Shown one piece after another: positions 17,301 through 46,803 of a stretch of DNA of 54,276 bases. The notes beneath the pieces were generated by a model, which was not told where the DNA came from, made no database searches, and worked only from the letters and a program-made list of their open reading frames with translations. A program made the position numbers and the translations under genes. Positions within the stretch are counted from its first letter, which is position 1. Each line of letters opens with the position of its first letter. The stretch is from a virus: IMG/VR virus record IMGVR_UViG_3300034102_000129, positions 1-54,276 of that record. One strand, given 5' to 3'.

Positions 17301-17946
17301 CATGAACGTAGACACGTTTGGTCGTGAGATATACAACAACCGCATGAGTCGATATGGCGATGCGTTCACGGGCGGTAGGCACGTGCCAGAGTTATACAAC
17401 CAAGCAGCCCGTAAGTTGTTTGAAGTGAGCAACGCACAAGTCGATGTCTCGCCCAACACAATGTACTTCTTTGCCAACAACTACGTTGATGGCTTGAGCC
17501 GCATAATCCACAACGGGCATGGCATGTTCTTCACGCTGTTTGGGCAAAAAGAGTTTGACCCCAAACGAGACCTTATCTTCATGGATAGTTTCTTCGGCAG
17601 GAAGTCGAGCGTAGACGCCCGTGAGTTTGCTCAAATTGAGAAACGCATCCAAGAGAAAGAGCAGCGGCTGCGTACGGTCAAAGACAGACCTGAACTGATG
17701 CAGCGGTACTTGGAGTCAAACCCGAACGATCCTGCGCTTGTGTATATCTACAACAAGTTGAAGAATCAGCAGTTGAAGCGTGTCCGAGAAGAGATGAACA
17801 AGGTCAAGGCGGCGGACATCGGGCCAGACAAGGAAATCAAGTCTGTTAAGGATCGGCAAGAACGACTGCGTGACCTTGAGCGGATACGTGATATGACGAT
17901 GCGTAGCATTATCGATACGTTTGAACAGTACGGGCTAGAACCCTAA
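11341..17946 (+). CDS. 2201-aa polyvalent-type ejected protein with zincin domain
   Basis: This is the largest gene of the window. The first 45 residues (MPIYEIRGPDGKTYSIEGPP...) match a short N-terminal domain shared by large phage proteins. Residues about 320-360 are a charged helix, followed by an Ala/Pro/Glu-rich linker to about 560. A metallopeptidase-like site reads H956-E-I-V-H960 with a plausible third zinc ligand at E1012 (SVYEFVSYAMTE), as in zincins of phage polyvalent proteins. Residues about 1600-1900 (NPAFHPYNFVRDVLTNAFTMG... MFFRPAATGAVRAID) resemble a large polyvalent protein associated domain. Such proteins are thought to be packaged and delivered with the DNA to protect or remodel the new host. 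The target is unknown. The last codons meet a convergent gene. Confidence 0.7.
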   Translation: MPIYEIRGPDGKTYSIEGPPGATREQVIAAIQSRMATKQARSEQAGFLESFRESALGLGKAPEAARFAAAEPGTDEARKAFLEANRPKKETTSFEEVKDLSSLVDWAKQTAGTSTGYLVAPAAAATVGKMLTKAPGAAKALGYGTLGAQYLIDNLSRQAATQEEQIQRGEGPSETSLAKAGAAAVGQTALDAVGIRFFKPLFGQFPILRNLLGESGEKAAKEAEDALLESVRNGTLTRGRGIVSGAVKGAAFEIPQEIAQTVLERAQAGLSLTDREARREYTEAAAGAVLLGSPLGGASQYYQNKEKIEEAQQIQFAREIEREEARQKTEAARKKAAEAERETEKGVKKETREAKISEQLDAARNVLFNLTNPDGTPITVEAEPGQFERALIGSGIPARDANRLLGRLKRESVITERNPVTGIRSIIPEAKQYDLTKGTEEVTTAAAPPASALAAAQVTTAAAPAPVAAEPDRGTTDESTRIVAPAAGIAETDTGAIRAGVAQPVQERRATRPPATEVADTGVVSVDETAGQPVNREEPVKPALSDLKLETWQQRFEQTKSRFDEADPESPINLLTRINQLKQKLPDGEGVKYLNDIENIVSYLRKGADVETIADKLGMDLPEIESYLDDLRNPEAEGLPPIIDANNKPIPEAFVEQKTTTKEGQKGRTIESVYNRFLTANETPLITAARSLDSLIDKYDADDVIKNTGELRARLNERLSEIEKDLADQKALRAAQRAAKTERVGGETETELEQREVAASQRAQAKIESANQTAGMGPVVSTELAKANVNLPDVDQQVKDAVAQKDANKILDVLYGLNEELGNAIPVGEAPTPQVERVKQTPKEMTKGQRAKLIRSIFEKSIPTAESTSNLFGERPAVAVSERGAAKRRIDVTKSLIDTLRKVDLSDLGFELEGDTEADADAFERMRKQNRLAEYDPKTNVIRLRAEGVKQKTLLHEIVHAVTVKVLRQYETDPNSLPDSQREAAEHINKIYGLASKKLKTRYPNAFESVYEFVSYAMTENAFQKDLSELRSPNLAKYATKAVKDFWTQFVEALMHMFDLYPLGGREALFQAEKAIKLERDINDPNTSEAKKNLLRQQLARIRKERIQTRAGNYLLETAGAFEEILSPPQKGVDVAPLAAKAAPPAEERDVSKIKAEYRRKLEKKHPTEPAVRGAVKFLKTHEGSEWLIRKFQNDRRPLKVLQDILVRAGKLIVGEENFNNLYSLISLSSGNAFHVMTQYFQKDMHDVHEAVEAYAKARNLNLMDALSDLNLYMVARHEPERRLIKFLRNVPLDNTKLITFGGVSRTAAEHRREIFNLLRTNVALTKGQATALRNFVEGLAGYKNGKKVGIGSIDVKAGKSMDARAKPGKYTDDINDGVYNVAGEFTPSELEKLRSAYQVDPQKALVDRITASMKRIQDNTIERDKQANYWSQPVENIVNFYNFQNYVPLKGKPGQGETEDESEYNYTGRRLSGELAETTQSFEGRISDADNVIMQTLVDGAKSAMRAGRKDVTQAIKNLIEQGYIDGVNLNGGRKNKPIPFQDRESQLELSKYKGDDKIYHYNPDGSVEVLKINDKRMLESIRRVYREKSPFIDMANRITSGIGQSHTRYNPAFHPYNFVRDVLTNAFTMGAEFGPDKSLKFIGHISTRVAEGGMAKAAKVSKLYADGDVGKIQELAKKDSFTASILEYLQEGGRVSYVQGLAIQGQIDELVKDINRGKWVRGKEKIDKWVDIWTDMFELTSRAAAYETAKAEALARGMSEKAARQEGAAYAKNLANFEQVGEWGRQAGALYMFFRPAATGAVRAIDALIPAIQDVQTAVDRLPESIRKDSAAVNRFRANFMKEKKNAQAMALGLLGAGFTLYVMAFMAADDDELGRNVVSTEDMSLWTRNLRLPLGFLGIERLKDSFLQWPWGFGLGAFGAMGAQVAGMAMGRASLADGLANATTIALDSFIPLPVARFNPTDNFPAWMLDSLAPSLARPFLEYTMNVDTFGREIYNNRMSRYGDAFTGGRHVPELYNQAARKLFEVSNAQVDVSPNTMYFFANNYVDGLSRIIHNGHGMFFTLFGQKEFDPKRDLIFMDSFFGRKSSVDAREFAQIEKRIQEKEQRLRTVKDRPELMQRYLESNPNDPALVYIYNKLKNQQLKRVREEMNKVKAADIGPDKEIKSVKDRQERLRDLERIRDMTMRSIIDTFEQYGLEP

Positions 17947-18137
17947 CGTACCCGCCACACGCGCACTCCAAGGTGTCCATCCTTGGACGAGGTATATGAT
18001 TTGACCCGTATACCTGCTGCCTTGGAGCGCGAGTCTATAACGTAGTGCATCTCTGCCGGTTTGAGCGTTGGCACGAAGAAACTATCGCCAACTTTCATGA
18101 ACTCAAACGGGAAGAGCCATTCAGGTTCCTTTATCAT
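17943..18137 (-). CDS. conserved small phage protein
   Basis: This 64-aa protein starts MIKEPEWLFPFEFMKVGDSFFVP. I recognise the pattern of FxxMxVGDSFFVPTLKPAEM...IDSRSKAAGIRVKS...GVRVWR from small proteins in many podovirus and siphovirus replication modules, but no function is known to me. The chosen ATG gives a 17-base overlap with the end of the primase gene; an upstream in-frame ATG at 18173 would add 12 residues with a longer overlap. It is the last gene of the leftward operon, and its stop codon overlaps the stop of the convergent 2201-aa gene. Confidence 0.65.
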   Translation of the reverse strand: MIKEPEWLFPFEFMKVGDSFFVPTLKPAEMHYVIDSRSKAAGIRVKSYTSSKDGHLGVRVWRVR

Positions 18138-20964
18138 CGAAGAAGTTTTCTGGCAGTTCTGACTTAAAGACATAGCAAGACACGGCTGACATGTGTGTGC
18201 CTTGCTTCCATCCTGTAGTCAAACGTTGCTTTTTCTGGTCAACGAGGATGCCAGACTTCCGCCACTCTTCCTCTGCTGCACGGGCGCTGACTTGCAGTCC
18301 CGGCTGCGCCAAAAACTTACGCATCTCGCTCTTGGAGATGTAGTGCAGGTTCTTGTCTGCTTCAATACGCCCCACGATGATGTTGCCGTACGGCTCAGCA
18401 ATCACCTTGTCTTCGTTGAAGATGAGGTAGTTCTTGTGATTGTTATTGAAGAATAGTCCGAACAGTTCCTTGTAGTCGGTGCTGTTGAGACTAAAGATCG
18501 TACGGCGAGACTTGTTCATCTCCTCCATCACGACATCAAATATACGTTGCAAATCTAAGTTGACAATACCCGCAGCAACGGCGATTTCGCCACCAGCAAA
18601 TGAGGTGGCTATTGTATTCTCGTAGAACCTGTAGGCTTCATCAGCCCCGTAACTAGCGCGGAACTTGTCTGACCAGTCGCTGATCACTTCGCGCACTCGC
18701 GGCAAGCCAAGTTTGTATACAGTACGGATAAAATCTGGCCCGGCGTGTCCGTAGTTGTGGTTGAACGGATCAACGATCTTCTTGGAGATAGTCGGGTCTT
18801 CGCTGAACCATTGCGGCTTCTGCAGTCGGAACTCGATGATACGAGCCATCTCGCCGTCTGGACTGTTCTTCAACCCAGACAACTTGTCATAGAGCGACTG
18901 GTTCGTGGTCATGACCGCAATCAATGACGCTGCAAACTCAATCTCACGTTCAGCATTGACGCTCGACTGCATACGTAACTTGGCACGACCTTGCGAAATG
19001 CGGTGAATGAGCCGTGCCAGAAGTTCGTTGGGGATGTTCGTAGCCTCATCAAGCCCAAACAACATGTTCTTGAGAGACAGGTAACGACCGAGCAGAGCAT
19101 TGTCTGTAGCATTACCTTCAGACAGGCTCAGGTAAAACGGGTTACCGAATATGCTAACACCTGCATACATGGAGCCGGTCTTACCCACACCAGATTCCGG
19201 TGACATATACGAAATAGTGCAGCCGGGGGTGTTGGTCAAGGCCATGAGCGGTGAGCCGAACCCTGCCAAAAGTCCCATAGCGTGTAGTTCCAACCCTACA
19301 TGATTGAACGCATTGGCTGACTTCTTCCAGATCTCATAGTCGCCTTCGGGTTTAATGAACTTGGATACGTTTTTGGCAAGCGGGGACGTTGCTGCAGGTT
19401 GCGTGTCTCCGTTGATCAGTATCTCTGTCATGCCAGCAACAAAGCCTTCGTTGTTCTCTGTCCAACCCATCTGCTGCCGCATGACTTCAGCCGCTTTCTG
19501 TAACTGCATATATTCGTCCCATTTGATGATGTATTCGGAAACAAACTTCGCCATAGATGGCATGAAGTTCACGCTGTTAGAACTCAGCAGTTCTTTCATC
19601 TTATCCAGCGCGTAAGCGTATTTGACTGGAAAAATAAACTCTTTCAACGGGTCTTTCGGCATGATGTGTCGCATCAGAAGGCATTCGCCATCCGTAGGGC
19701 TGAACATCCGCTTGACCGGAAAGAAATCGTGCGTCGTGATACGCAGTAGTTCATCGGGTTCTTTCTCACCCGACTCGTTTATTTTCCCACGTTGGAGGAA
19801 GAAGACTCCTCCGTTTCGTCCTCGTACATAGGGGAGGATGGCTGAAGGAAATAACGGAATTTCTTCGGAATTCTCTTGGCCCCGAACTGCGTCCTCCGAA
19901 CTAACTTCTTCAAGCGTTGGAGCCGGTCTGAATTCCCGTCCAAGTTCGATAGGGCCGTAGATTTTTCCTCTGTGGGGACATCCATCGCAGACTCCGGGGT
20001 TTAATTGATTGAACGCTTCGCAACCGTAGGCACTTGTCGCCTTGAGTGTTGATTGTGCTTTTGCTTCGGTCAGTTTCGGGCTGTACTCGGGATGCCCTTT
20101 GGACATCGTATGGATGGCCTCGCCCCCGTCCACGCACCGTATGGCAACGGATAGCCCTGCTCTCCACAAAGGTTCAGCAAGCGTTGCCGCATTGACCAAT
20201 ACATGTTTTATCTGAGCGCAGCCCTCATTACTCTGCAAACTTTTGATTGCAATCGGCTTGAACGTGTATTCGTAGTTATCGAACTTGGCAAGTTTGGCGA
20301 TGATCTCAGTGTCGCTATCTAGCCCCTTGGCAATACCAGACAGTACCGATTCCGTCGTCTGCTCAACCGGCCCCATAAACTCCTTGAACCTATCCCACGA
20401 ATAGACATTGATAAGTTCATCTAAAATACGAGTTTGAGTCCCTTGAGTTTTCTTGTAGTTCGTAGTATTGGGGCAACGCATGACCCGCGCCGTGTCGCCC
20501 ATGACGGCAGGGTCAATCTTGATGTAGTCAAGGCAGAACTTCTTGAACGCCAAGGAGTACTCTTTCCACTCGACGCTCGGGATGTCTTGATCAAAAACCC
20601 AATAGGCGTGGACACCTCCACCGGAGTCCAACCGGACGGGCGGGGGCAGTTTTGATATCTTGATGAAGTCATCTAACGCGGCTAGTGCTTCATCTTTGGT
20701 GGTGTACTTTTTGCTATCTTCACCAACGTCTAGGTCGATGAACAGCGTCCTGCAGTATTCGGCGTTGTCTGCCTTTCGGCTGTAGTTCTGGTAAGTGTTG
20801 GGTGCAAAAAATACGTTTGATTCAGACTGTTTAAGTTCATCGATGATCTCAAGCATGTCGCCAAGTGTTTCAGCAAACCGATTGATGGCCTTGCCATCCT
20901 TGATTCCGGTAACACAGTAAACACCCTGCGACGGTAATGCTTTCTCATAAAATTGTTGTGTCAT
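18121..20964 (-). CDS. AEP-type DNA primase-helicase
   Basis: This 947-aa protein has an N-terminal archaeo-eukaryotic primase domain. The metal-binding pair D77-L-D79 lies in TLFIDLDVG, and S-G-G-G-x-H119 (DSGGGVHAYWVF) supplies the histidine motif. A cysteine cluster (CEAFNQLNPGVCDGCPH, residues about 310-332) suggests a zinc ribbon. The C-terminal half is a P-loop ATPase with Walker A SPESGVGKTG near residue 590 and Walker B LFGLDEAT near 636. It should prime and unwind at the phage fork with the family A polymerase. ATG at 20964 is preferred (GGAAACGGTC upstream) over an in-frame TTG at 20982, because the TTG lies in the U-tract of a terminator-like hairpin. Confidence 0.85.
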   Translation of the reverse strand: MTQQFYEKALPSQGVYCVTGIKDGKAINRFAETLGDMLEIIDELKQSESNVFFAPNTYQNYSRKADNAEYCRTLFIDLDVGEDSKKYTTKDEALAALDDFIKISKLPPPVRLDSGGGVHAYWVFDQDIPSVEWKEYSLAFKKFCLDYIKIDPAVMGDTARVMRCPNTTNYKKTQGTQTRILDELINVYSWDRFKEFMGPVEQTTESVLSGIAKGLDSDTEIIAKLAKFDNYEYTFKPIAIKSLQSNEGCAQIKHVLVNAATLAEPLWRAGLSVAIRCVDGGEAIHTMSKGHPEYSPKLTEAKAQSTLKATSAYGCEAFNQLNPGVCDGCPHRGKIYGPIELGREFRPAPTLEEVSSEDAVRGQENSEEIPLFPSAILPYVRGRNGGVFFLQRGKINESGEKEPDELLRITTHDFFPVKRMFSPTDGECLLMRHIMPKDPLKEFIFPVKYAYALDKMKELLSSNSVNFMPSMAKFVSEYIIKWDEYMQLQKAAEVMRQQMGWTENNEGFVAGMTEILINGDTQPAATSPLAKNVSKFIKPEGDYEIWKKSANAFNHVGLELHAMGLLAGFGSPLMALTNTPGCTISYMSPESGVGKTGSMYAGVSIFGNPFYLSLSEGNATDNALLGRYLSLKNMLFGLDEATNIPNELLARLIHRISQGRAKLRMQSSVNAEREIEFAASLIAVMTTNQSLYDKLSGLKNSPDGEMARIIEFRLQKPQWFSEDPTISKKIVDPFNHNYGHAGPDFIRTVYKLGLPRVREVISDWSDKFRASYGADEAYRFYENTIATSFAGGEIAVAAGIVNLDLQRIFDVVMEEMNKSRRTIFSLNSTDYKELFGLFFNNNHKNYLIFNEDKVIAEPYGNIIVGRIEADKNLHYISKSEMRKFLAQPGLQVSARAAEEEWRKSGILVDQKKQRLTTGWKQGTHMSAVSCYVFKSELPENFFDDKGT

Positions 20965-20980
20965 GACCGTTTCCGCAGAC

Positions 20981-21006
20981 AAAAAAGGCGGGGTCGAACC
21001 CCCGCC
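20981..21006 (-). terminator. rho-independent terminator or attenuator before the primase
   Basis: On the minus strand a 7-bp GC stem (GGCGGGG/CCCCGCC) closes a short loop and is followed by six T. It lies after the HTH gene and only 16 bases before the primase ATG, too close for a new promoter in between, so it more likely attenuates than fully stops transcription. Confidence 0.8.
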
Positions 21007-30178: not shown

Positions 30179-30851
30179 AGGTCACCTCTTTGGCTACGTT
30201 CATCCACTCTTTACCGTATTCAACGTCCGTCCAGTCCTTGAACCACGGCCCACCTCGCGTGAAATGTACCGCTTGCGGATTCGAGCAGTCTTCGCGGGTG
30301 TGCCATCCTTCCAGATAGTTGTAGGCAATCGGCAGATCGCCTATGCATGCGTCCCACAAGAACCTCAGTTGATGAAGGTACATGCCAGACTCACGGTTCA
30401 CGACCTCGGGGGTCAGCGCCTTCACGTGCAGGTGCTCACAGTTCCACAGAATCATGCTCGACCAATTCTTGCGCGGATACTGGTGCTGAAACTTGCCGTC
30501 CATCTTGGTGGCTTCCTTCGGCTTATAGTCATGCTTGACCACGACGGCACCATAGTACGGGTTCATGTAGTCCTGCAGCGCAGCGACATCACCTCGCCAC
30601 AAGAAGTCGCAGTCCATGAACACCGCCCACCCTTTGTACCCTGCAAGATGCGGCACCAAGAAGCGTGTGAAGGAGAACTCCGTGGACGAAAGCGGGTCAT
30701 GCTCACGCCAGTACAAGTTCTTCTCACGCATCTCCTGTTGTTTGATTGGCTGAATGTCGAGCGGCACAGACGTGTGCTTCTCCAACGACCGTTTGCAAGC
30801 ACGATACGCAACGTCCTCGCGGCTATCCCAACCAATAAAGATTTTCATCAT
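30171..30851 (-). CDS. GT-A-type glycosyltransferase, GT8-like
   Basis: This 226-aa protein begins with the nucleotide-sugar-binding start of GT-A enzymes (MKIFIGWDSREDVAYRACKRSL). The metal-binding motif D80-C-D82 lies in WAVFMDCDFLWRGDV, and the acceptor/donor-side histidine region is GGPWFKDW near the C-terminus. Phage proteins of this pattern are found in marine and freshwater phages and probably transfer a sugar to a host glycan, phage structure or small molecule. The ATG lies in an ATGATG that overlaps the stop of the next upstream gene. Confidence 0.75.
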   Translation of the reverse strand: MMKIFIGWDSREDVAYRACKRSLEKHTSVPLDIQPIKQQEMREKNLYWREHDPLSSTEFSFTRFLVPHLAGYKGWAVFMDCDFLWRGDVAALQDYMNPYYGAVVVKHDYKPKEATKMDGKFQHQYPRKNWSSMILWNCEHLHVKALTPEVVNRESGMYLHQLRFLWDACIGDLPIAYNYLEGWHTREDCSNPQAVHFTRGGPWFKDWTDVEYGKEWMNVAKEVTYE

Positions 30852-32710
30852 ATTGCCTCAAACAGTTGCTTACGGCTCGGCCCCTTGTAGTGCAGTATTT
30901 TCGCATCGTCTGTCTTGTGTTCGGGTAGACACGCATATACTGACTCGTCGAACTCGGCACAGCCGTACTTCTCGGCGTAGATGCGTAACACTTCTTGATC
31001 ACCGTACCACTTGCGGTACTTCGGATGCAGTTCCTCGTAGATTTTTAACATCTCTACCCACACTTGCGAATCCTTGACCGCCACAGCGCAGCCCACATAC
31101 GGGTACAGTTCTCCCATAGTTTTACCCTTGTGCTCATCAAACGTCAGCCCACGCTGCTCGATGTTGAACTCCGTGTCGATGTTGAATGACCTCTTACAGA
31201 ACGCAATCTCTGTGCCGCTCAACATCTCTTCGATATCAACCCAACTCTGCACGATCATATCGGTGTCCAGATAGAGTGCAGGGCCATTGATGTCGAGCCG
31301 TGCATACGCCTTGGCTCTTGAGTACATCAAGTTGTTTGGGTCTACTTCTATCTCAAACCTGTCAGTCACGCCCATCACATCGGGTGTCGCGCTGTCCGTA
31401 CACATGATGATGTCAGCACTTGGGTTGTACCGCAGCAGGGACTTGACCATCTTCTGTGGATAAGAAATGTCTTTGCCCACGTGGAAGAAAACAAAAGTCT
31501 GCCGTTGTCGTTGGCGTTCACCCAACATCACTTCAAGTTCTTCTTGGACTTGACTCAACTGCAAATCCCACGGCGCGTTCATGTTCTCGCGCTGATAAAC
31601 CCTCACGCCGCTGTACCACAGACTCTGGTTGCCGACTCGGTTGTTCCAGTACCAGAGTTTGTTGGCATCAAGTAATAAAACATCCTTGCCCATCGCCCCT
31701 GCCAGATGCACGGTCGTACAGGATGGCGAGATGACCACACTGCATATCTCCATGAGTGCAGCCACGTTCTCCAGATCAAAGAACGTATCAATATGCGTAG
31801 TGATTAGGTTCGGATGGAAGTCCCGGCCTTGCTCTTGAACCTCACCAAACTGAAGGTTGATGAACTTCAAGTTCGGCTTATCCAGAATCGGACGGAACGC
31901 CTCCAACGGCACAGACTTGTGCTGCCCGATCACAGGTGCGGTACTTGTCCAAGAAAGTCCTACTACAAAGTCATCCTCATGCAGCCCGTACTCTTTGCGG
32001 AGCATGGCTACGCGCTCTGGGTCAGCCTTGAGATAACGGAACGACACGCTCGGTGCTATATCACGCACTGAGTTGATGAAGTATTTACCCAAGGACGCAA
32101 TCGGTATGTGCGAATCATGCTCACTCATCTTGACCCGTGCATTGTGCGATAGGAACTTGACGTTCTTCGCCCTGCATCCACGTTGGAAGAGATTTGCCAT
32201 ACGCAGGTCAACCATGACGGTGACCTCATCGACCTCCCGTGCCAACGCTTCGATCAGCGAACCATACAAAATCTGATCACCAATGCCTTGCTCACACCAG
32301 ACAATCGGACGGCGCAGTCCCTTGCCACGCTCCCACTGTGGGTGCTTGGTGTGCAACTTCGGAGACTTGAAAGACTTACTTCCCCATCGCCGCTCGTAAC
32401 CTTCCCAACCCTTCTTGAAGTCGCCCATTTGAAGAGCAAGAAGACCCACAGTCCATCCTGCATCGTCGTTGTGCGGCTCTAGTTGGGCAGCAATCTCAAA
32501 GTGCTGTCGTGCAAGATTCCAACGGTGCATCTCCCAGTGGCATCGTCCAATCTGCAATTCGACTGCCGTCATGATTGGCAACGCAACGTGTACGTTACTC
32601 AAGATGCCGATAGCCTCGTCGTAGTTACCGCTTTCAGCCGCTTCGACGCCCATCTTGTAGATGGCCTGTGCAAACTCAGCAAGACTTTTCTGCTTGGGTT
32701 CTCCGCTCAC
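30848..32710 (-). CDS. TPR plus dual glycosyltransferase fusion protein
   Basis: This 620-aa protein has three parts. Residues 5-105 are TPR-like helices (MGVEAAESGNYDEAIGILSN, RWNLARQHFEIAAQLEP). Residues about 125-390 are a GT-B-like domain of the GT9/heptosyltransferase-like class, with WCEQGIGDQILYG (140-145) and SPSCTTVHLAGAMGK (328-342). Residues about 405-620 are a GT-A domain with L-D-T-D-M (481-485) and PYVGCAVAVKD. The true start is the GTG at 32710, which overlaps the stop of a 42-aa gene (GTGA) and has GAGGGGG upstream. The ATG at 32779 would overlap most of that small gene. Confidence 0.75.
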   Translation of the reverse strand: MSGEPKQKSLAEFAQAIYKMGVEAAESGNYDEAIGILSNVHVALPIMTAVELQIGRCHWEMHRWNLARQHFEIAAQLEPHNDDAGWTVGLLALQMGDFKKGWEGYERRWGSKSFKSPKLHTKHPQWERGKGLRRPIVWCEQGIGDQILYGSLIEALAREVDEVTVMVDLRMANLFQRGCRAKNVKFLSHNARVKMSEHDSHIPIASLGKYFINSVRDIAPSVSFRYLKADPERVAMLRKEYGLHEDDFVVGLSWTSTAPVIGQHKSVPLEAFRPILDKPNLKFINLQFGEVQEQGRDFHPNLITTHIDTFFDLENVAALMEICSVVISPSCTTVHLAGAMGKDVLLLDANKLWYWNNRVGNQSLWYSGVRVYQRENMNAPWDLQLSQVQEELEVMLGERQRQRQTFVFFHVGKDISYPQKMVKSLLRYNPSADIIMCTDSATPDVMGVTDRFEIEVDPNNLMYSRAKAYARLDINGPALYLDTDMIVQSWVDIEEMLSGTEIAFCKRSFNIDTEFNIEQRGLTFDEHKGKTMGELYPYVGCAVAVKDSQVWVEMLKIYEELHPKYRKWYGDQEVLRIYAEKYGCAEFDESVYACLPEHKTDDAKILHYKGPSRKQLFEAI

Positions 32711-32835
32711 CAGTAGTTTCCCCCTCGTCCGATACTGCCCCGACTGCACCGCCAGTTGGGTGGCGGCACCCTGCGCCATGCGTAGTGAGCCTCGTACTCA
32801 CTACGCTTCCACCAGTTGATCAATGCACGGATCAT
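32707..32835 (-). CDS. 42-aa protein between two island genes
   Basis: This short gene starts at an ATG in an ATGA overlap with the preceding methyltransferase and ends at a TGA that overlaps the GTG start of the TPR-glycosyltransferase. The product begins MIRALINWWKRSEYEAHYAW and continues RRVPPPNWRC to a Gly-rich tail ending GNYW. It has seven Trp and Tyr pairs in a basic frame. The perfect stop/start coupling at both ends, the same as in neighbouring genes, is the main evidence that it is real. Confidence 0.6.
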   Translation of the reverse strand: MIRALINWWKRSEYEAHYAWRRVPPPNWRCSRGSIGRGGNYW

Positions 32836-38527: not shown

Positions 38528-38545
38528 TTCCACCCATGGGTGGAA
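38528..38545. promoter_or_regulatory. 18-bp palindrome, exact copy
   Basis: TTCCACCCATGGGTGGAA, a perfect inverted repeat, lies 20 bases upstream of the MoxR ATG, between two genes. The same sequence occurs exactly at 40433 and 41077 and in close variants at 39479 and 41961. In RNA it would form a seven-bp stem with a CAUG loop. Confidence 0.85.
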
Positions 38546-39545: not shown

Positions 39546-39574
39546 AGTATATCAAAAGTGTACATATAAGTCAA
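39546..39574 (-). promoter_or_regulatory. sigma70-like promoter for the 302-aa gene
   Basis: On the minus strand TTGACT (-35) and TATACT (-10) are separated by 17 bases. The intervening sequence is nearly the same as in the promoter at 40500-40528. The -35 overlaps the stop of the upstream gene, so this promoter adds transcription inside the leftward operon. Confidence 0.8.
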
Positions 39575-40012: not shown

Positions 40013-40216
40013 TCAAAACGGATGGACAGGGCGTGGCTGTGGCGGCTCGTCGAGCGGCAGTTCCATCTGCTCCCAACGCTCGTTGAGTTCGCGCCCAAAC
40101 TGGCGCATGGCGTCTTCAATGGCTTCGTAGTGCATCTGCTCCATCTGCCGTTGCCATGCCTCGTCGCTGTCCTGTGCAACCCACCAATCGGCGGGAATGT
40201 CTCGCGGGGTAGTCAT
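40013..40216 (-). CDS. small acidic helical protein
   Basis: This 67-aa protein (MTTPRDIPADWWVAQDSDEAWQRQMEQMHYEAIEDAMRQF...) is helical, Trp-rich near the start and proline-rich at the end. GGAGGATTTTACCG precedes its ATG, which overlaps the upstream stop by ATGA. No family is recognised. The 52 bases after it, before the next gene, hold a weak GCCAA/TTGGC hairpin without a T-run. Confidence 0.5.
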   Translation of the reverse strand: MTTPRDIPADWWVAQDSDEAWQRQMEQMHYEAIEDAMRQFGRELNERWEQMELPLDEPPQPRPVHPF

Positions 40217-40476
40217 CGGTAAAATCCTCCTTTGTTGTTGATGCCTTTCAAGTCTTCCAAGTCAGTGACCAGTATGTAGTTTGATTTGTGTAGGGGAACT
40301 ACACACCGTACTACCTGCTGGGCATTCGCTTCGCCACACGGCATACACAGGTAGATGCCAAGCGCCCATCGCCTAGCATCTACCGCTTCGCCGCACTTCA
40401 CACACAAGTCACTTGTCTCGTCAGATTCCGTTTTCCACCCATGGGTGGAAACATAATTAAGCGTTGCTCGCGTCAT
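40213..40476 (-). CDS. small zinc-binding protein, first gene after promoter
   Basis: This 87-aa protein starts at ATG 40476 with GGGGAG six bases upstream. Its codons 9-15 (STHGWKT) are written over an exact copy of the 18-bp palindrome, so the operator-like site is inside the gene. Residues 25-45 (CVKCGEAVDARRWALGIYLCMPCG) form a CxxC...CxxC zinc ribbon. The tail is KSNYILVTDLEDLKGINNKGG. No characterised family was recognised. Confidence 0.65.
   Translation of the reverse strand: MTRATLNYVSTHGWKTESDETSDLCVKCGEAVDARRWALGIYLCMPCGEANAQQVVRCVVPLHKSNYILVTDLEDLKGINNKGGFYR
40433..40450. promoter_or_regulatory. 18-bp palindrome, exact copy inside the 87-aa gene
   Basis: TTCCACCCATGGGTGGAA lies 43 bases downstream of the expected start site of the promoter at 40500-40528, the same spacing as at 39479/39546. 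It is translated as part of the 87-aa protein. Confidence 0.85.
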
Positions 40477-40499: not shown

Positions 40500-40528
40500 A
40501 GTATACCAAAGGTAGACATATAAGTCAA
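40500..40528 (-). promoter_or_regulatory. sigma70-like promoter for the small-gene cluster
   Basis: On the minus strand TTGACT, a 17-base spacer and TATACT stand 24 bases before the 87-aa ATG. The spacer begins TATATGT like the second promoter. It should drive leftward transcription away from the iteron region. Confidence 0.85.
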
Positions 40529-40566: not shown

Positions 40567-40961
40567 TTGTTCCAGTTGTTCCAGTCTTGTTCCAGTTTTT
40601 TGTTTACATATGCGACAGAGTTTGGAAAACGGAGCGGGAGTGAGAGAAGTGTAAGTGATTGAATTTATTAGATAGAATAGAATTAAGTTTATATATAGTA
40701 GTAGAAAGTAGTGAAAAATGGTGCCTTTGTTCCGTTGTTCCAGTGTTTTAGGGGGAGAGCGGTTGGCAAAATGATAAGTTGATTCACCGCGCTGCAAACT
40801 TTCTCGCGCACGATTTTAAAATGCTTTCCCCCGCCCTATCCCGAAAAAACTGGAACAGTGGAACAAACCCGTTTTTTCTTAATGTAATCAAGCACTTGCG
40901 TGTTCCAGTCGATTTTGGAAACTGGAACAAAACTGGAACAAACACCTAAAAACTGGAACAA
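40567..40961. repeat. iteron array around an AT-rich core, candidate origin
   Basis: TTGTTCCAGT or its complement occurs about eleven times. The plus orientation has exact copies at 40567, 40576, 40587 and 40735, a weak copy at 40727 and a 9/10 copy at 40900. The minus orientation has exact copies at 40921, 40932 and 40952 and 9/10 copies at 40849 and 40857. Between the two clusters lies an AT-rich stretch (about 40650-40720). Opposed clusters around an AT-rich segment are the plan of a replication origin. The region has no supported gene. Confidence 0.75.
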
Positions 40962-40999
40962 AACATGATTGATTATATAATTAATCAACTTCAACCCAA

Positions 41000-41027
41000 T
41001 TTATAGGTTAATTACGTAATCAATCAA
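41000..41027 (-). promoter_or_regulatory. possible leftward promoter in the origin region
   Basis: On the minus strand TTGATT, a 16-base spacer and TATAAA are in a good arrangement. A transcript from it would run through the iterons towards the 87-aa gene and could prime replication. It overlaps one of the TGATTA-type palindromes, which could control it. Evidence is limited to the motif match. Confidence 0.4.
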
Positions 41028-41076
41028 TTTTGACCCCATCTAAAATGGCTAATTACGGCAAAATCTCAATTTGATT

Positions 41077-41094
41077 TTCCACCCATGGGTGGAA
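41077..41094. promoter_or_regulatory. 18-bp palindrome, exact copy in the origin region
   Basis: TTCCACCCATGGGTGGAA occurs between the iterons and the 203-aa gene. No matching promoter is visible at the 43-base spacing found for other copies, so a role other than promoter control (for example origin control) is possible. Confidence 0.8.
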
Positions 41095-41212
41095 TGGCCT
41101 GAATGGTGCGGCGGTTGATTGATTACATAATCAGCCACGCGATGTCGCGCAGCCTCGCACGCTCACACAAACAAGGAACTGGCATCGAAGATGCGCCCTG
41201 CAAAACGCAGGG

Positions 41213-41250
41213 CAAAAAAAAAGCCCCGACCGGACTAGTCCGGTCGGGGC
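41213..41250 (-). terminator. strong terminator of the 203-aa gene
   Basis: On the minus strand a perfect 28-base palindrome (41223-41250, arms GCCCCGACCGGAC) is followed by nine T and then a second GC hairpin (CCCTGC/GCAGGG). It stands 16 bases after the stop of the 203-aa gene and should separate that transcript from the origin and the downstream operon. Confidence 0.9.
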
Positions 41251-41266: not shown

Positions 41267-41878
41267 TTACTTCTTGGTGTAGGTTTCAATTTTGGCAAGG
41301 TATGCTGCTTCTGCTGCTTTAATAGCCTCTTGAGGCCATGCAGCGGGGACACCCTTCGACCTAGCCGTGGCGTGCATCTTATCGATACCGGCTAGTGCTT
41401 TCATGCTGCGAGTAATCAGTTCGCCGGGAACTCTAGCCACCCCGGTTATGCCGCGTTCGCGTCGGGCTATCGTTTCAATGTAGGTATAGCGGTTTGATGC
41501 GTTAGTCTGCACCGCCTTACGCATTGCAGCGACCACCTTGTGACGGCCCGGCTCCGATGTTTTCATCTGACCAAGTTCGTGCGGGGTCGTTCTCATCACG
41601 GTGTCGGCATTGAACGACAGCACTCTACTAGTGTCTGCTTTCTTGGCATCAGCAGGTGTGACCATTGTGTAGGTGTCACCTTCCCGCAGGAAGAATCGCG
41701 TCGGGAATTTAGCCTTCGCACGATTCAACAGACCGGCGCGGATATCGGCCTCATCCTGTTCGGTTACCTTTTCGGGGAAGGTAGGTACGATAGCGACGAT
41801 AGCCATTACTGCGTCGATAAGTGAGTCGGCAGAGTCATAGGCTTTTTCTGCAGCGGTAATAAGTTTAGCGTTAGACAT
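41267..41878 (-). CDS. control-region protein of unknown function, 203 aa
   Basis: This 203-aa protein starts at ATG 41878 with CGGAG eight bases upstream; longer in-frame starts lie inside the promoter. It is helical (MSNAKLITAAEKAYDSADSLIDAVMAIVAIVP), with a basic middle (GQMKTSEPGRHKVVAAMRKAVQTNASNRYTYIETIARRERG) and a C-terminal helix (AIKAAEAAYLAKIETYTKK). I do not recognise a family. It is transcribed alone: its own promoter with a palindrome copy, and a strong terminator. It is a candidate for the protein that binds the palindromes or iterons, or an early host-takeover protein. Confidence 0.6.
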   Translation of the reverse strand: MSNAKLITAAEKAYDSADSLIDAVMAIVAIVPTFPEKVTEQDEADIRAGLLNRAKAKFPTRFFLREGDTYTMVTPADAKKADTSRVLSFNADTVMRTTPHELGQMKTSEPGRHKVVAAMRKAVQTNASNRYTYIETIARRERGITGVARVPGELITRSMKALAGIDKMHATARSKGVPAAWPQEAIKAAEAAYLAKIETYTKK

Positions 41879-41960: not shown

Positions 41961-41978
41961 TTCCACCTATGGGGGGAA
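41961..41978. promoter_or_regulatory. 18-bp palindrome, variant beside the 203-aa promoter
   Basis: TTCCACCTATGGGGGGAA differs from the consensus at two positions. It abuts the -35 of the 203-aa gene promoter, a position suited to an activator or a repressor. Confidence 0.7.
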
Positions 41979-42157: not shown

Positions 42158-42724
42158 ATGAACGTGGACGCATTCGTACCTGACATAGAAGAGGGCATAC
42201 CTCTGCCAAGCAATGCTTTGGAAGCGTTGCCAGACTTGACATCGACCGAAGAGATTGAAATGCGTGCCAAAACCATTAAGTTCTTCTCGGACTTGAGCGG
42301 GATTCTGATTGAGCCAAACAAAGACCAGCAGTTAGCCGCTGCTGATTTAGCACATCAAATGGTGCATGACCCCAAGATCAAACATGACTTTGCCAAATAC
42401 CCCAACGAAACCATCGCTTTTCTGGCAGGGCTTGTTGCTAAAACCAACCATGCCCTCGTTGAAGACCTTGCCACGCTTAAAAATTACGTCATAACGAACC
42501 TCGTTAAAGAGATTGAGATGACGAGTGACAGCAAACTTCGCGTGCAGGCGTTGAAGACGCTGGGCGAAGTAGACGGGATCGACGCTTTCAAGAAGCGAAG
42601 CGAGATCACACACGTGATCAAGCCCATCGAAGAGGTCGAAAAAGAACTCATTCAGGTTATATCTGTGCTAGAGAACGTTGAATACCACGTTGTAGATGGC
42701 GAGAATGCAGCAGATAACGCCTGA
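42158..42724 (+). CDS. putative small terminase subunit or terminase-linked protein
   Basis: This 188-aa acidic, helical protein (PDIEEGIPLPSNALEALPDLTSTEEIEMRAKTIKFFSDLSGI...) ends with coiled segments (EEVEKELIQVISVLENV) and overlaps the large terminase start. Its position directly before the large terminase, and its size, are those of a small terminase subunit that recognises the packaging site, but an HTH is not obvious. It has no clear ribosome binding site before ATG 42158, in agreement with a possible leaderless start. The downstream in-frame ATG at codon 35 is an alternative. Confidence 0.5.
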   Translation: MNVDAFVPDIEEGIPLPSNALEALPDLTSTEEIEMRAKTIKFFSDLSGILIEPNKDQQLAAADLAHQMVHDPKIKHDFAKYPNETIAFLAGLVAKTNHALVEDLATLKNYVITNLVKEIEMTSDSKLRVQALKTLGEVDGIDAFKKRSEITHVIKPIEEVEKELIQVISVLENVEYHVVDGENAADNA

Positions 42725-44216
42725 AGGGTTGCAGAAACTGCGACTAGCCCTGCCAACAATGCCTGAAAAGGAGAAGCGGCGCATCGCTGACCTCCTAAAA
42801 CAGTACCAGAATCAACTGACGCAGCGTTTAGGCAAGGATTCCTTCTTAGATTTCATTACCCACGTATATCCCGGCTACAAAGTCGGGCCTCACCATCAAA
42901 AATTGGCTAGGATTTTCGAGGAAATTGCAGAGGGCAAGAAAAAACGGGTCATCGTTAACATCGCCCCGCGTCATGGTAAGAGCGAGATGATCTCCTACCT
43001 CGCTCCAGCGTGGTTTTTAGGCAAATTTCCGCAGAAAAAGGTCATCATGGCCTCTCACACTGCAGACCTTGCCGTGAATTTCGGGCGTCGAGTCAGAAAC
43101 CTAGTTGGATCGGAGCCTTATCGTGAGATTTTTCCGGGCGTGGCTCTCCAAGTTGACAGCAAGTCTGCTTCTCGTTGGGGTACGAATTTTAACGGTGAGT
43201 ACTTCGCTATTGGCGTTGGCGGCGCTCTTGCTGGCCGTGGTGCCGATCTCTTTATTATTGATGATCCTCACTCTGAACAGGAGGCTAAGCAGGGTCGTGC
43301 GGACGTATTTGAGCCAGCATGGGAGTGGTTCCAGTCAGGCCCGGTCCAACGACTGATGCCGGGTGGTGCAATCATCGTGGTTATGACCCGGTGGTCGAAG
43401 ATGGACCTGACCGGCAAGATCGTGGACCACATGACCCGCGAAGAAGACGCGGAGGAGTGGGAGGTCGTCGAGTTCCCAGCGATCCTGAACGACAAACCGC
43501 TCTGGCCTGAGTTCTGGAGTATCGAGGAGTTGCTGGCTAAGAAAGCCAGCATGGATGTGCGGTACTGGCAGGCCCAGTACATGCAGCAGCCGACCTCCGA
43601 AGAGGGGGCGCTCATCAAGCGGGAGTGGTGGCGGGTCTGGGAGAAGGAAGACCCACCCCACTGTGAGCACATCATCCTGTCGCTTGACGCTGCCCAAGAG
43701 AAGAACAACCGGTCAGACTACAACGCCTTGTTGACTTGGGGCGTGTTTTTCAACGAAGAGACTAAAAACTACAACATTATCCTGTTGAACGCCATCAAGC
43801 AGCGGTTGGAGTTCCCTGAACTGAAAGCCCTCGTACTTGAGGAGTACAAAAGTTGGCAACCGGACTCGTTTATCGTGGAAAAGAAGTCCAATGGTGCGGC
43901 GCTTTATCAAGAGTTCCGTCGCATGGGCGTGCCGATTAGTGAGTTCACGCCGGGTAAGGGGCAGGACAAGATCAGCCGCGTAAATGCCGTATCTGACCTG
44001 TTTTCTTCAGGTATAGTCTGGTCGCCTGACCGGCGTTGGGCGCATGAAGTTATTGAGGAATGTAATGATTTCCCCTCTGGCCGAAATGACGACTTGGTTG
44101 ACGCCACTACCTTGGCTCTCATGAGGTTTAGGCAGGGCGGGTTTCTCCGCTTGCCCAATGATGAGCCAGAACCGACACGGTGGTTCAAGAATCGTCGCGG
44201 TGCTGGATACTATTAG
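42696..44216 (+). CDS. terL: terminase large subunit
   Basis: This 506-aa protein is a packaging ATPase-nuclease. Walker A is P91-R-H-G-K-S96 (NIAPRHGKSEM), Walker B is L-F-I-I-D189-D190 (GADLFIIDDPHSE), and the coupling motif is VVMTRWS. The C-terminal RNase H-like nuclease has D331 (LSLDAAQ), an acidic V-E-K-K-S-N (SFIVEKKSNG) and N-D-D-L-V-D-A (DDLVDATTLALM). It pumps DNA into the prohead through the portal encoded next. The first ATG (42696) overlaps the previous gene by 29 bases; ATG 42705 is an alternative. Confidence 0.97.
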   Translation: MARMQQITPEGLQKLRLALPTMPEKEKRRIADLLKQYQNQLTQRLGKDSFLDFITHVYPGYKVGPHHQKLARIFEEIAEGKKKRVIVNIAPRHGKSEMISYLAPAWFLGKFPQKKVIMASHTADLAVNFGRRVRNLVGSEPYREIFPGVALQVDSKSASRWGTNFNGEYFAIGVGGALAGRGADLFIIDDPHSEQEAKQGRADVFEPAWEWFQSGPVQRLMPGGAIIVVMTRWSKMDLTGKIVDHMTREEDAEEWEVVEFPAILNDKPLWPEFWSIEELLAKKASMDVRYWQAQYMQQPTSEEGALIKREWWRVWEKEDPPHCEHIILSLDAAQEKNNRSDYNALLTWGVFFNEETKNYNIILLNAIKQRLEFPELKALVLEEYKSWQPDSFIVEKKSNGAALYQEFRRMGVPISEFTPGKGQDKISRVNAVSDLFSSGIVWSPDRRWAHEVIEECNDFPSGRNDDLVDATTLALMRFRQGGFLRLPNDEPEPTRWFKNRRGAGYY

Positions 44217-44226
44217 GAGAATCTAA

Positions 44227-46803
44227 ATGGCCGTCGATAAAAGTTTGATGCAGGCTCCGCAGGGTCTTGAAGCACTTGCTGCTCCTGAACCGATTGAAAT
44301 CGTGATTGAAGACCCTGAAAGCGTGGCTATCGGGGTTGATGGCATGGTGGTCGAAATGGTTAAAGACGACCCACGTGCCGAGGATTTTGATGCCAACCTC
44401 GCTGACTTCATGAGTGAAGGCGAACTTGGGTCGCTTTCTGGCGAGTTGATCGGCCAGTATGAGCAAGACCTTGCTTCGCGTAAGGATTGGCTTGATACCT
44501 ACGTCAAGGGCTTGAAGATCCTAGGGATCAGGTATGAAGAGCGTACGGAGCCGTGGCCGGGCGCGTGTGGCGTGTTCCACCCCCTCCTCATGGAGTCGGC
44601 GGTCAAGTTTCAGTCCGAGACCATCATGGAGACTTTCCCGGCGGCAGGGCCGGTCAAGACCAAGATCATTGGTAAGGAGACCTCGGAGAAGAAAGCCTCC
44701 GCCATCCGTGTCTCGGATGACATGAACTATCAGTTGACCGAGGTGATGAAGGAGTACCGCCCTGAGCACGAGCGGATGCTGCTCAGCCTCGCCTTGGCAG
44801 GTAACGCCTTCAAGAAGGTCTACTTCGACCCCAGCCTTGACCGTCAGACTGCGATCTATATCCCGGCTGAAGACATCATCGTGCCGTATGGCGCGGCGAA
44901 TCTGGAGGGTGCTGAACGTGTTACGCATCGGATGCGTAAGACGAAGAACGAACTGATCAAACTGCAGTACGCAGGGTTCTATCGGGACATTGACTTGGGC
45001 GACCCGGTTCGCACGATGGACGAGGTAGAGAAGCAAAAGGCTGAAGATCAAGGCTTCTCAGCCACGATGGACGACAGGTTTCAGTTGCTTGAGATGCACG
45101 TGAGTATCGACCTGCCGGGTTATCCCGATGTCGATAAGGACAACAACGAGACAGGGATTGCGTTGCCGTATGTGGTGACGATTGAGAAGGGGACAGGGAC
45201 GGTTCTGGCGATTAGGCGGAACTGGAACGAAGATGACAAACTCAAATCAAAGCGACAGCACTTTGTGCATTACGGGTATATCCCCGGCTTTGGCTTCTAC
45301 TATTTTGGACTTATTCATCTCATCGGCGGCCACTCTAAGGCAGCCACCTCGCTCCTTCGTCAACTTATCGACGCAGGAACTCTTAGCAATCTTCCGGGTG
45401 GTCTCAAGTCACGTGGCCTGCGTATCAAGGGGGACGATACCCCCATTGCTCCCGGAGAGTTCCGCGACGTAGACGTGCCTTCGGGTGCGATCCGCGACAA
45501 CATCCTGCCCTTGCCGTACAAGGAGCCGAGCCAGACCCTTGCTATGTTGATGGACAAGGTGGTCGAGGATGGCCGTCGTTTCGCTGCGGTGTCAGATCTG
45601 AAGATCTCTGACATGTCCTCGCAGGCTCCGGTCGGCACGACCCTTGCTGTGCTTGAGCGTGTCCTCAAGGTCATGACGGCGGTTCAGGCCCGCATCTATT
45701 ACACGATGAAGCAGGAGTTCAAACTCCTCGCTGCGATCATCCGCGACAACACCCCGGATGAGTATTCGTACGAACCAGAGGTCGGTGATCGCAAGGCTAA
45801 GAAGGCTGACTACGATGATGTGGATGTCATCCCGGTCAGTGACCCGAACGCGGCCACGATGTCGCAGAAGATCGTGCAGTATCAAGCCGTGCTGCAGTTG
45901 AGCCAGTCTGCTCCCGCCATCTATGACATGCCGTATTTGCATCGGCAGATGATTGAGACGCTTGGCGTTAAGAACGCTGAGAAGATCATTCCGAATCTAG
46001 ATGACATGAAGCCCCGCGATCCGGTAACCGAGAACATGGACATCATGACGGGCAAACCCGCCAAAGCGTTCATCTATCAGGACCACGAAGCGCATCTGCA
46101 GGTTCACTTGTCGGCTATCCAAGACCCAAAGTTGCGGGAGATGATCGGTCAGAACCCGAAGGCGCAGGAGATCATGGGCGCTGCGATGGCGCACATCATG
46201 GAGCACGTAGCCTTCCAATATCGCCGTGAGATTGAGAAGCAGTTGGGCGCTTCGCTTCCGCCCCCGCCGAAAGATAAAGACGATAAGGAGATGGTGTTGC
46301 CAGAGGCTGTCGAGATTGAGATATCTCGCCTTGCCGCACAGGCTGCAGCCAAACTGCTCCAAAAGGATGTGCAGGAGGCTCAAGCCAAACAGGCCCAGCA
46401 ACAGGCTCAAGACCCCATCATTCAGATGCAGCAGATGGAGTTGCAACTTCGCCAGCAGGAACTACAACTCAAGGCGCAGCAGATCCAGATGGAGGCTCAG
46501 AACAAACAGACAGAACTGCAACTTGAGGCACAACTCAAACAGGCAGAACTGCAGCGCAAACAGCAAGAGATGCAGATCATGGCGGCGACCAAGGCCGATG
46601 AACTCGACCTTCGCAAACAAGAGATCGCCAACAGGACGCAGATCGATGCTGCACGACTCGGTGTGGATGTTCAGAAGCACAAGACCGGGCTGTCTGCTAA
46701 GCAGCAGGAAGCAGGGGTGCGTATGGGTATCGACATCGCAAAAACCAGAGACGCAGCCATGCGGGCTGCGCTACGACCGCCGAAAGGTGCAAAGGAGGAG
46801 TAA
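44227..46803 (+). CDS. portal protein
   Basis: This 858-aa protein follows the large terminase with TAGGAGAATCTAA before the ATG. The central SLALAGNAFKKVYFDPSLDRQ, VPYGAANLEGAERVTHRMRKTKNELI and DAGTLSNLPGGLKSRGLRIKGDDTPIAPGEFRDVDVP segments match podovirus-type portals. The last 200 residues are a long Gln-rich coiled coil (MELQLRQQELQLKAQQIQMEAQNKQTELQLE), giving a long crown or barrel. The portal forms a dodecamer at one vertex and is the entry for DNA and the seat of the adaptor. Confidence 0.93.
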   Translation: MAVDKSLMQAPQGLEALAAPEPIEIVIEDPESVAIGVDGMVVEMVKDDPRAEDFDANLADFMSEGELGSLSGELIGQYEQDLASRKDWLDTYVKGLKILGIRYEERTEPWPGACGVFHPLLMESAVKFQSETIMETFPAAGPVKTKIIGKETSEKKASAIRVSDDMNYQLTEVMKEYRPEHERMLLSLALAGNAFKKVYFDPSLDRQTAIYIPAEDIIVPYGAANLEGAERVTHRMRKTKNELIKLQYAGFYRDIDLGDPVRTMDEVEKQKAEDQGFSATMDDRFQLLEMHVSIDLPGYPDVDKDNNETGIALPYVVTIEKGTGTVLAIRRNWNEDDKLKSKRQHFVHYGYIPGFGFYYFGLIHLIGGHSKAATSLLRQLIDAGTLSNLPGGLKSRGLRIKGDDTPIAPGEFRDVDVPSGAIRDNILPLPYKEPSQTLAMLMDKVVEDGRRFAAVSDLKISDMSSQAPVGTTLAVLERVLKVMTAVQARIYYTMKQEFKLLAAIIRDNTPDEYSYEPEVGDRKAKKADYDDVDVIPVSDPNAATMSQKIVQYQAVLQLSQSAPAIYDMPYLHRQMIETLGVKNAEKIIPNLDDMKPRDPVTENMDIMTGKPAKAFIYQDHEAHLQVHLSAIQDPKLREMIGQNPKAQEIMGAAMAHIMEHVAFQYRREIEKQLGASLPPPPKDKDDKEMVLPEAVEIEISRLAAQAAAKLLQKDVQEAQAKQAQQQAQDPIIQMQQMELQLRQQELQLKAQQIQMEAQNKQTELQLEAQLKQAELQRKQQEMQIMAATKADELDLRKQEIANRTQIDAARLGVDVQKHKTGLSAKQQEAGVRMGIDIAKTRDAAMRAALRPPKGAKEE

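Follow-up and report, generated by a model that had tools for sequence, protein, structure and literature searches.

Gene context of the repeat array

The window, which is the entire IMG/VR record (54,276 bases), has no exact terminal repeat of 20–399 bases. At 40567–40961 it contains a non-coding array of short repeats (iterons) of 395 bp, bordered on one side by a promoter at 40528 and on the other by the terminator of a gene for a 203-aa protein (Table 1). This agrees with the first-pass annotation, which had placed the repeats between leftward promoters and that terminator. No conserved ORF was seen across the array. The TTGACT and TATACT boxes of the promoter are also present in three relatives (L084, L085 and L087). 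A tRNA search found none, and Rfam gave sub-threshold matches only, located at the terminator.

Table 1. Coordinates of the array, its elements and the genes discussed in the text.
Feature	Position	Strand	Remarks
AEP primase + DUF927 helicase + C-terminal winged helix, 953 aa, proposed initiator	18121–20982	-	PF06048, PDB profile matches, AlphaFold2 model
First gene of early operon	40213–40476	-	adjoins array in most relatives
Sigma-70-like promoter of leftward early operon, TTGACT-17-TATACT	40500–40528	-	promoter boxes
Outer left iteron triplet (40567, 40576, 40587), TTGTTCCAGT	40567–40596	+	conserved in relatives
AT-rich core, likely DNA unwinding element	40640–40719	.	lowest stability; contains TAGTAGTAG at 40696–40704
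E element 1, GTAAGTGATTGAATT, inward-facing	40651–40665	+	24/24 E positions identical in 80% relatives
Inner iteron pair, degenerate TTGTTCCG then TTGTTCCAGT	40727–40744	+
G+C-richer spacer separating inner pairs	40745–40848	.
Inner iteron pair, opposite strand	40849–40866	-	one mismatch each
E element 2, GCAAGTGCTTGATT on minus strand, inward-facing	40886–40899	-	24/24 E positions identical in 80% relatives
Single iteron abutting E element 2	40900–40909	+
Outer right iteron triplet (40921, 40932, 40952)	40921–40961	-
Intrinsic terminator, insulates array from 203-aa gene	41223–41250	-	leftward terminator
203-aa neighbour, alternative binder or accessory factor	41267–41878	-	syntenic with array in many relatives

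Several other features were noticed in the window. The leftward promoter-like sites at 39574 and 40528 (minus strand) are near-identical (TTGACTTATATGT...TATACT), suggesting duplicated early promoters. The palindrome TTCCACCCATGGGTGGAA occurs at 38528–38545, 40433–40450, 41077–41094 and, imperfectly, 41961–41978, with copies lying where leftward genes begin and next to the array; conserved in relatives, it is likely bound as an operator by a regulator of the phage. Between the array and the terminator there are three copies of TGATTGATTAnnTAATnAATCA, an AT-rich palindromic element (40966–40987, 41006–41028 and 41115–41136), one of which is retained in relatives. A 643-aa TPR-containing protein (30848–32779), 60–100% conserved in many viral contigs, is a good marker of the family.

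GC skew across the window has a broad minimum at 38–43 kb (exact minimum 42502) and a maximum at 17934. The minimum spans the array, as anticipated for an origin, but it coincides with the switch in gene strand, where replication and transcription are inseparable, and thus lends the origin no support.

Architecture of the array

The iteron TTGTTCCAGT, with up to one mismatch, has 17 matches in the window against 3.6 expected (the largest count in 100 shuffles was 10), and 10 of the 17 fall inside 40567–40961. An eleventh, degenerate copy, TTGTTCCG, lies at 40727–40734. Copies on the plus strand start at 40567, 40576, 40587, 40727, 40735 and 40900, and those on the minus strand at 40849, 40857, 40921, 40932 and 40952. 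The earlier count of about eleven copies therefore stands (ten plus one degenerate), but their arrangement in outer triplets and inner pairs is finer than the two opposed clusters first described. We found in addition a second element, E (YAAGTGNTTGATT), absent from the first-pass annotation, with two inward-facing copies. From left to right, the array consists of an outer triplet, E, the AT-rich core, an inner pair, a G+C block, the minus-strand inner pair, E, the single iteron and the other outer triplet, with both outer triplets pointing inward. The AT-rich core is present as claimed, but off-centre, between the left triplet and the plus-strand inner pair. No other 80 bp of the window are as unstable (-85.2, compared with a mean of -114.1 and a standard deviation of 5.6).

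The placement of two iteron sets around an AT-rich melting region is that of SaPI-, SCC- and PICI-type origins. The lambda-type arrangement, in which the iterons lie within the initiator gene, does not apply, the array being intergenic and the initiator candidate distal. Nor does that of RepA/RepE plasmids: there is no adjacent RepA-type gene, no Rep domain was found in the genes neighbouring the array, and no DnaA box (up to one mismatch) occurs in 38–44 kb.

The array is directly upstream of a promoter with conserved boxes and has further operator-like palindromes close by, so that the iterons might be no origin at all but operators through which a regulator controls the leftward early promoter (40528). 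We regard this as improbable, since operator clusters need neither a melt-prone core nor opposed flanking iterons nor E elements at fixed spacing. As an operator, the TTCCACCCATGGGTGGAA palindrome is the more convincing candidate, with copies near several leftward genes, whereas the iteron cluster is found here only. A centromere-like partition site of a phage-plasmid would likewise fit the repeats, partition sites being typically arrays of short repeats. This reading is barely plausible, as no ParA/ParB family member was found among the proteins scanned (part of the ORFs), and a melt-prone core is not expected of such a site.

Conservation and iteron exchange among relatives

In two relatives with about 80% DNA identity over the array (L084 and L085), the iterons (70/70 positions) and the E elements (24/24) are identical, while the rest of the array (spacers) is 75% identical and the flanking non-coding DNA 51–55%. 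In L029/L087, 66/70 iteron positions and 24/24 E positions are identical. Distant relatives, with terminases down to about 53% and primase-helicases down to 42% identity, retain opposed TGTTCCA arrays in the syntenic place, often with the terminase side on one flank and the g98-g302-ATPase-DUF2201 cluster on the other. In 40 records that were related or array-bearing, we counted about 100 TGTTCCA pairs versus two for a reversed-pattern control. Thus, the iterons are conserved in related phages in sequence, layout and position, the opposite of the result named earlier as speaking against an origin.

In some relatives, TGTTCCA is replaced by another opposed heptamer at the equivalent place: TGTGTCA in G003 and G010, and TGTACGC in G020. 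A probable TGTTTCA iteron, in a less complete array, is found in G002, and G012/L045 seem to mix TGTTCCA and TGTGCCA. Each swapped core begins with TTGT or TGT, and none of the swapped relatives lacks E-type elements, (C/T)AAGTNNTTGATT: G003 has two inward-facing copies and the others have at least one. Furthermore, of 11 relatives compared, 10 have the least stable 80-bp stretch of their available sequence within the array, among them the iteron-swapped G020 and G010. The exchange of the iteron core with retention of the E-type elements and the melt-prone core points to an origin of replication and not to a terminase site, and the earlier proposal of a candidate origin gains support from these relatives, which share the layout with a different iteron.

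The terminase large subunit (TerL) gene is about 1.7 kb away on a divergent boundary, and the array might accordingly be read as a pac or cos site recognized for packaging. However, the TerL proteins of G020 and G010 are 87% identical to that of the window and their iterons are entirely different, showing that the iterons do not follow the terminase; a packaging site is therefore highly improbable.

No opposed iteron array was detectable in G016 (42 kb) and G017 (63 kb), both of which have the primase-helicase, and no clear array was seen in the stretches read of the named isolates HTVC027P, DSL-LC04, Rollin and a Rhizobium phage, which carry more distant primase or terminase homologues. The composite motif gave 55 matches in bacterial genomes, none in an array and none with homologous phage genes nearby, and thus provides no prophage or host clue.

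E elements and trinucleotide tracts

The E motif, written as AAGTNNTTG, occurs 47 times in 33 distinct TGTTCCA arrays, a set dominated by the window's own phage family, against five times in shuffles. In arrays of a control heptamer it is at background (3 versus 2.75 expected). The copies are mostly inward-facing and about 195–236 bp apart. In the window, the core YAAGTNNTTG occurs nine times and YAAGTNNTTGA four times, two of them within the array, the only place where copies face inward from both sides. The template start of the NrS-1 PrimPol is at TTTGGTTA, one base upstream of this sequence (PMC8718748), and the start preference of the SCCmec primase resembles its origin repeat (PMC7581432). 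By analogy with these two preferences, E is plausible as a priming start site and may be where the phage primase begins.

Many cores have a period-3 tract (TAG, AAG or TAA) adjoining E. Such a tract of at least 12 nt is present in 13 of 26 arrays, and the mean length is 12.1 nt compared with 6.5 nt in shuffles. When arrays are oriented, the trinucleotide tract follows E and precedes the iteron pair. The window's own tract is TAGTAGTAG only, that is, three TAG units. The unit classes of these tracts resemble the DnaA-trio of bacterial origins, 3'-(G/A)AT-5' (PMC10797057). Tentatively, the arrays could hold three separable codes: swappable iterons read by the winged helix, an invariant E from which the AEP primase would start on either strand, and, between E and the inner iterons, a tract of the TA(G/A) type that would act like a DnaA-trio for an MCM-like, non-DnaA initiator. 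We consider this triple assignment possible but rather doubtful.

The proposed initiator and the 203-aa neighbour

As the first-pass annotation had stated, the phage encodes an AEP primase-helicase, the 953-aa AEP–DUF927 protein. Its AEP catalytic signatures are conserved, with D83 and D85 invariant and H125 near-invariant. In a search of the PDB, a profile of 23 homologues matched significantly only SCCmec Cch (5dgk, E 4e-20) and a SaPI protein (8tch, E 7e-15), and four of the 23 homologues matched the HTH domain of Cch, HTH_56. The AlphaFold2 model (mean pLDDT 81.8) has a C-terminal winged-helix arrangement at residues 879–940. In fold comparison, the model matches Cch (5dgk) over residues 376–950 with a Z-score of 30.4 and SaPIbov1 Rep (8tch) over residues 377–948 with a Z-score of 25.8. 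The N-terminal AEP half matches the S-2L PrimPol (Z 19.1) and RSF1010 RepB' (3h25, solved with initiator DNA; Z 14.8). The protein thus has the make-up of the Cch/SaPIbov1 Rep (DUF927) family of initiator helicases with a C-terminal winged helix. In at least 12 records, the primase-helicase is encoded on a contig that also has a TGTTCCA array. Few parts of the protein evolve as fast as its C-terminal region, a pace that would befit a specificity domain. Co-variation of iteron type with winged-helix divergence is weak: G003 and G023 are 79% alike in the winged helix and have different iterons. In a Rhizobium phage (RHph_TM3_14A, MN988472.1), a homologue of this protein at 42239–45322 is annotated as 'putative integrase', and the gene order ATPase, metallopeptidase, Pol I, exonuclease, SNF2, primase-helicase parallels that of the window.

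The gene of the proposed initiator is about 20 kb from the array, so that, unlike in SaPI, SCC and PICI elements, the origin is not directly downstream of it. An adjacent reader of the iterons is offered by the 203-aa protein, which, as in iteron plasmids, might be a dedicated initiator that recruits the primase-helicase to the origin. Its gene is directed toward the array, and in seven relatives (G007, G028, L209, L162, L225, L221 and L037) the corresponding place is occupied by a diverged homologue; it also evolves fast, which would suit a specificity factor. On the other hand, no known domain or fold match, and no DNA-binding domain, was found for this protein, and in several relatives with TGTTCCA iterons a homologue is undetectable, an ORF of similar size occupying its place. 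We therefore think it unlikely that the 203-aa protein is the reader. The notion that this protein is confined to close relatives was rejected, as profile iteration recovered distant homologues. Among the binders suggested earlier (the 203-aa protein, an HTH protein and the primase), the AEP primase-helicase is strongly favoured for its modelled Cch/SaPIbov1 Rep fold and winged helix, with the 203-aa protein as a possible candidate.

Opposed arrays in other viral contigs

Opposed arrays of the shuffled control heptamer TGTCTCA were found at 27 of 120 loci in viral contigs and those of TGTTCCA at 25 of 120. A shared initiator for TGTTCCA arrays in unrelated viral contigs was rejected, the control being equally frequent, and an array found elsewhere is therefore no evidence for the 953-aa protein as initiator. 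Control arrays occur in contigs L257, L267, L273, L289, L291, L304, L333 and others. Several TGTTCCA arrays in other viral families are near genes for D5/DUF5906, DUF927 or AEP-RecA primase-helicases; the A1 profile matched in two of 20 other array-bearing records with TGTTCCA and in one of 27 with the control heptamer (AEP part only). That the control heptamer gave as many opposed arrays makes it doubtful that iteron origins are unusual for podovirus-like phages, as had been remarked earlier. With opposed arrays so common among viral contigs, the phage array does not define a new class; it would be one instance of a widespread type of iteron origin. Judged from sequence, its variant features are a fused AEP–DUF927 protein as putative initiator, encoded about 20 kb away, constant E elements and swappable iterons. 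As such arrays can be found by a simple de novo scan for opposed heptamers, many viral origins could be located in this way.

Proposed mechanism

We consider it probable, on sequence grounds, that 40567–40961 is the replication origin of the phage and that the 953-aa primase-helicase is its reader. In the layout, iterons frame a melt-prone core and two inward E elements. The winged-helix tails of several copies of the 953-aa protein would bind the iteron DNA (TTGTTCCA) and assemble hexamers, an assembly that we propose because SaPI Rep and Cch are so described. The core at 40640–40719 would then melt, and helicases would be loaded facing outward. The AEP domain would prime divergently, possibly with E as the template start on opposite strands, since a primase copying toward the 5' end of the template would give two outward leading strands. 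The family A polymerase of the phage would then extend both strands. Because relatives swap the iterons and keep E, iteron recognition and priming are separately testable. If this proposal is true, it provides an origin and a named initiator for a large family of uncultivated freshwater phages, from which dozens of contigs were recovered, and AEP–DUF927 primase-helicases would be origin-bound, self-loading initiators.

Comparison with known systems

SaPI Rep recognizes an iteron origin via its C-terminal domain, and Cch2 likewise binds iterons with its C-terminal domain (PMC7581432). SaPIbov1, an S. aureus pathogenicity island, resembles the phage in having iterons near an AT-rich region and a self-loading helicase that is DUF927/MCM-like and carries a DNA-binding domain at its C-terminus. 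It differs in that the phage primase is of the AEP type and fused to the helicase, some 20 kb lie between the phage origin and the initiator gene, and the phage element is not a satellite or an island lacking packaging and structural genes, since the window encodes a terminase, a portal and structural proteins. To our knowledge, the E elements have no reported counterpart. In SCCmec, Cch is the closest fold of the phage helicase half (Z 30.4), and the direct repeat ACCACTTA, which resembles preferred priming sites, shares CACTTA with the complement of E. However, SCCmec is an integrated cassette with three AAGTG iterons downstream of cch2 and a separate primase, CCPol-MP.

The alpha protein of phage P4 is likewise a primase, helicase and origin binder that reads short iterons (TGTTCACC in ori and crr), whereas P4 is a satellite and alpha has an SF3 helicase. 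The primase of alpha, a further difference, is of the Toprim type (PMC4234260). RSF1010 has iterons plus opposite single-strand initiation sites (PMC4234260). The iterons with opposed ssiA/ssiB recall the iterons and E elements of the phage, and the AEP domain resembles RepB' (3h25, Z 14.8); by contrast, RepC (for the iterons), RepA (the helicase) and RepB' (at ssiA/ssiB) are separate proteins, and the ssi sites are hairpins, which E is not. The origins of Gram-negative PICIs always have two iteron sets flanking an AT-rich region (PMC6092414). The phage shares this arrangement and a Pri-Rep initiator, and differs in that PICIs are satellite islands whose origin and pri-rep were tested together as a single unit. 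By analogy, the array may work as origins of the SaPI/PICI kind do, but some 20 kb separate it from its initiator gene, and the phage has packaging genes of its own.
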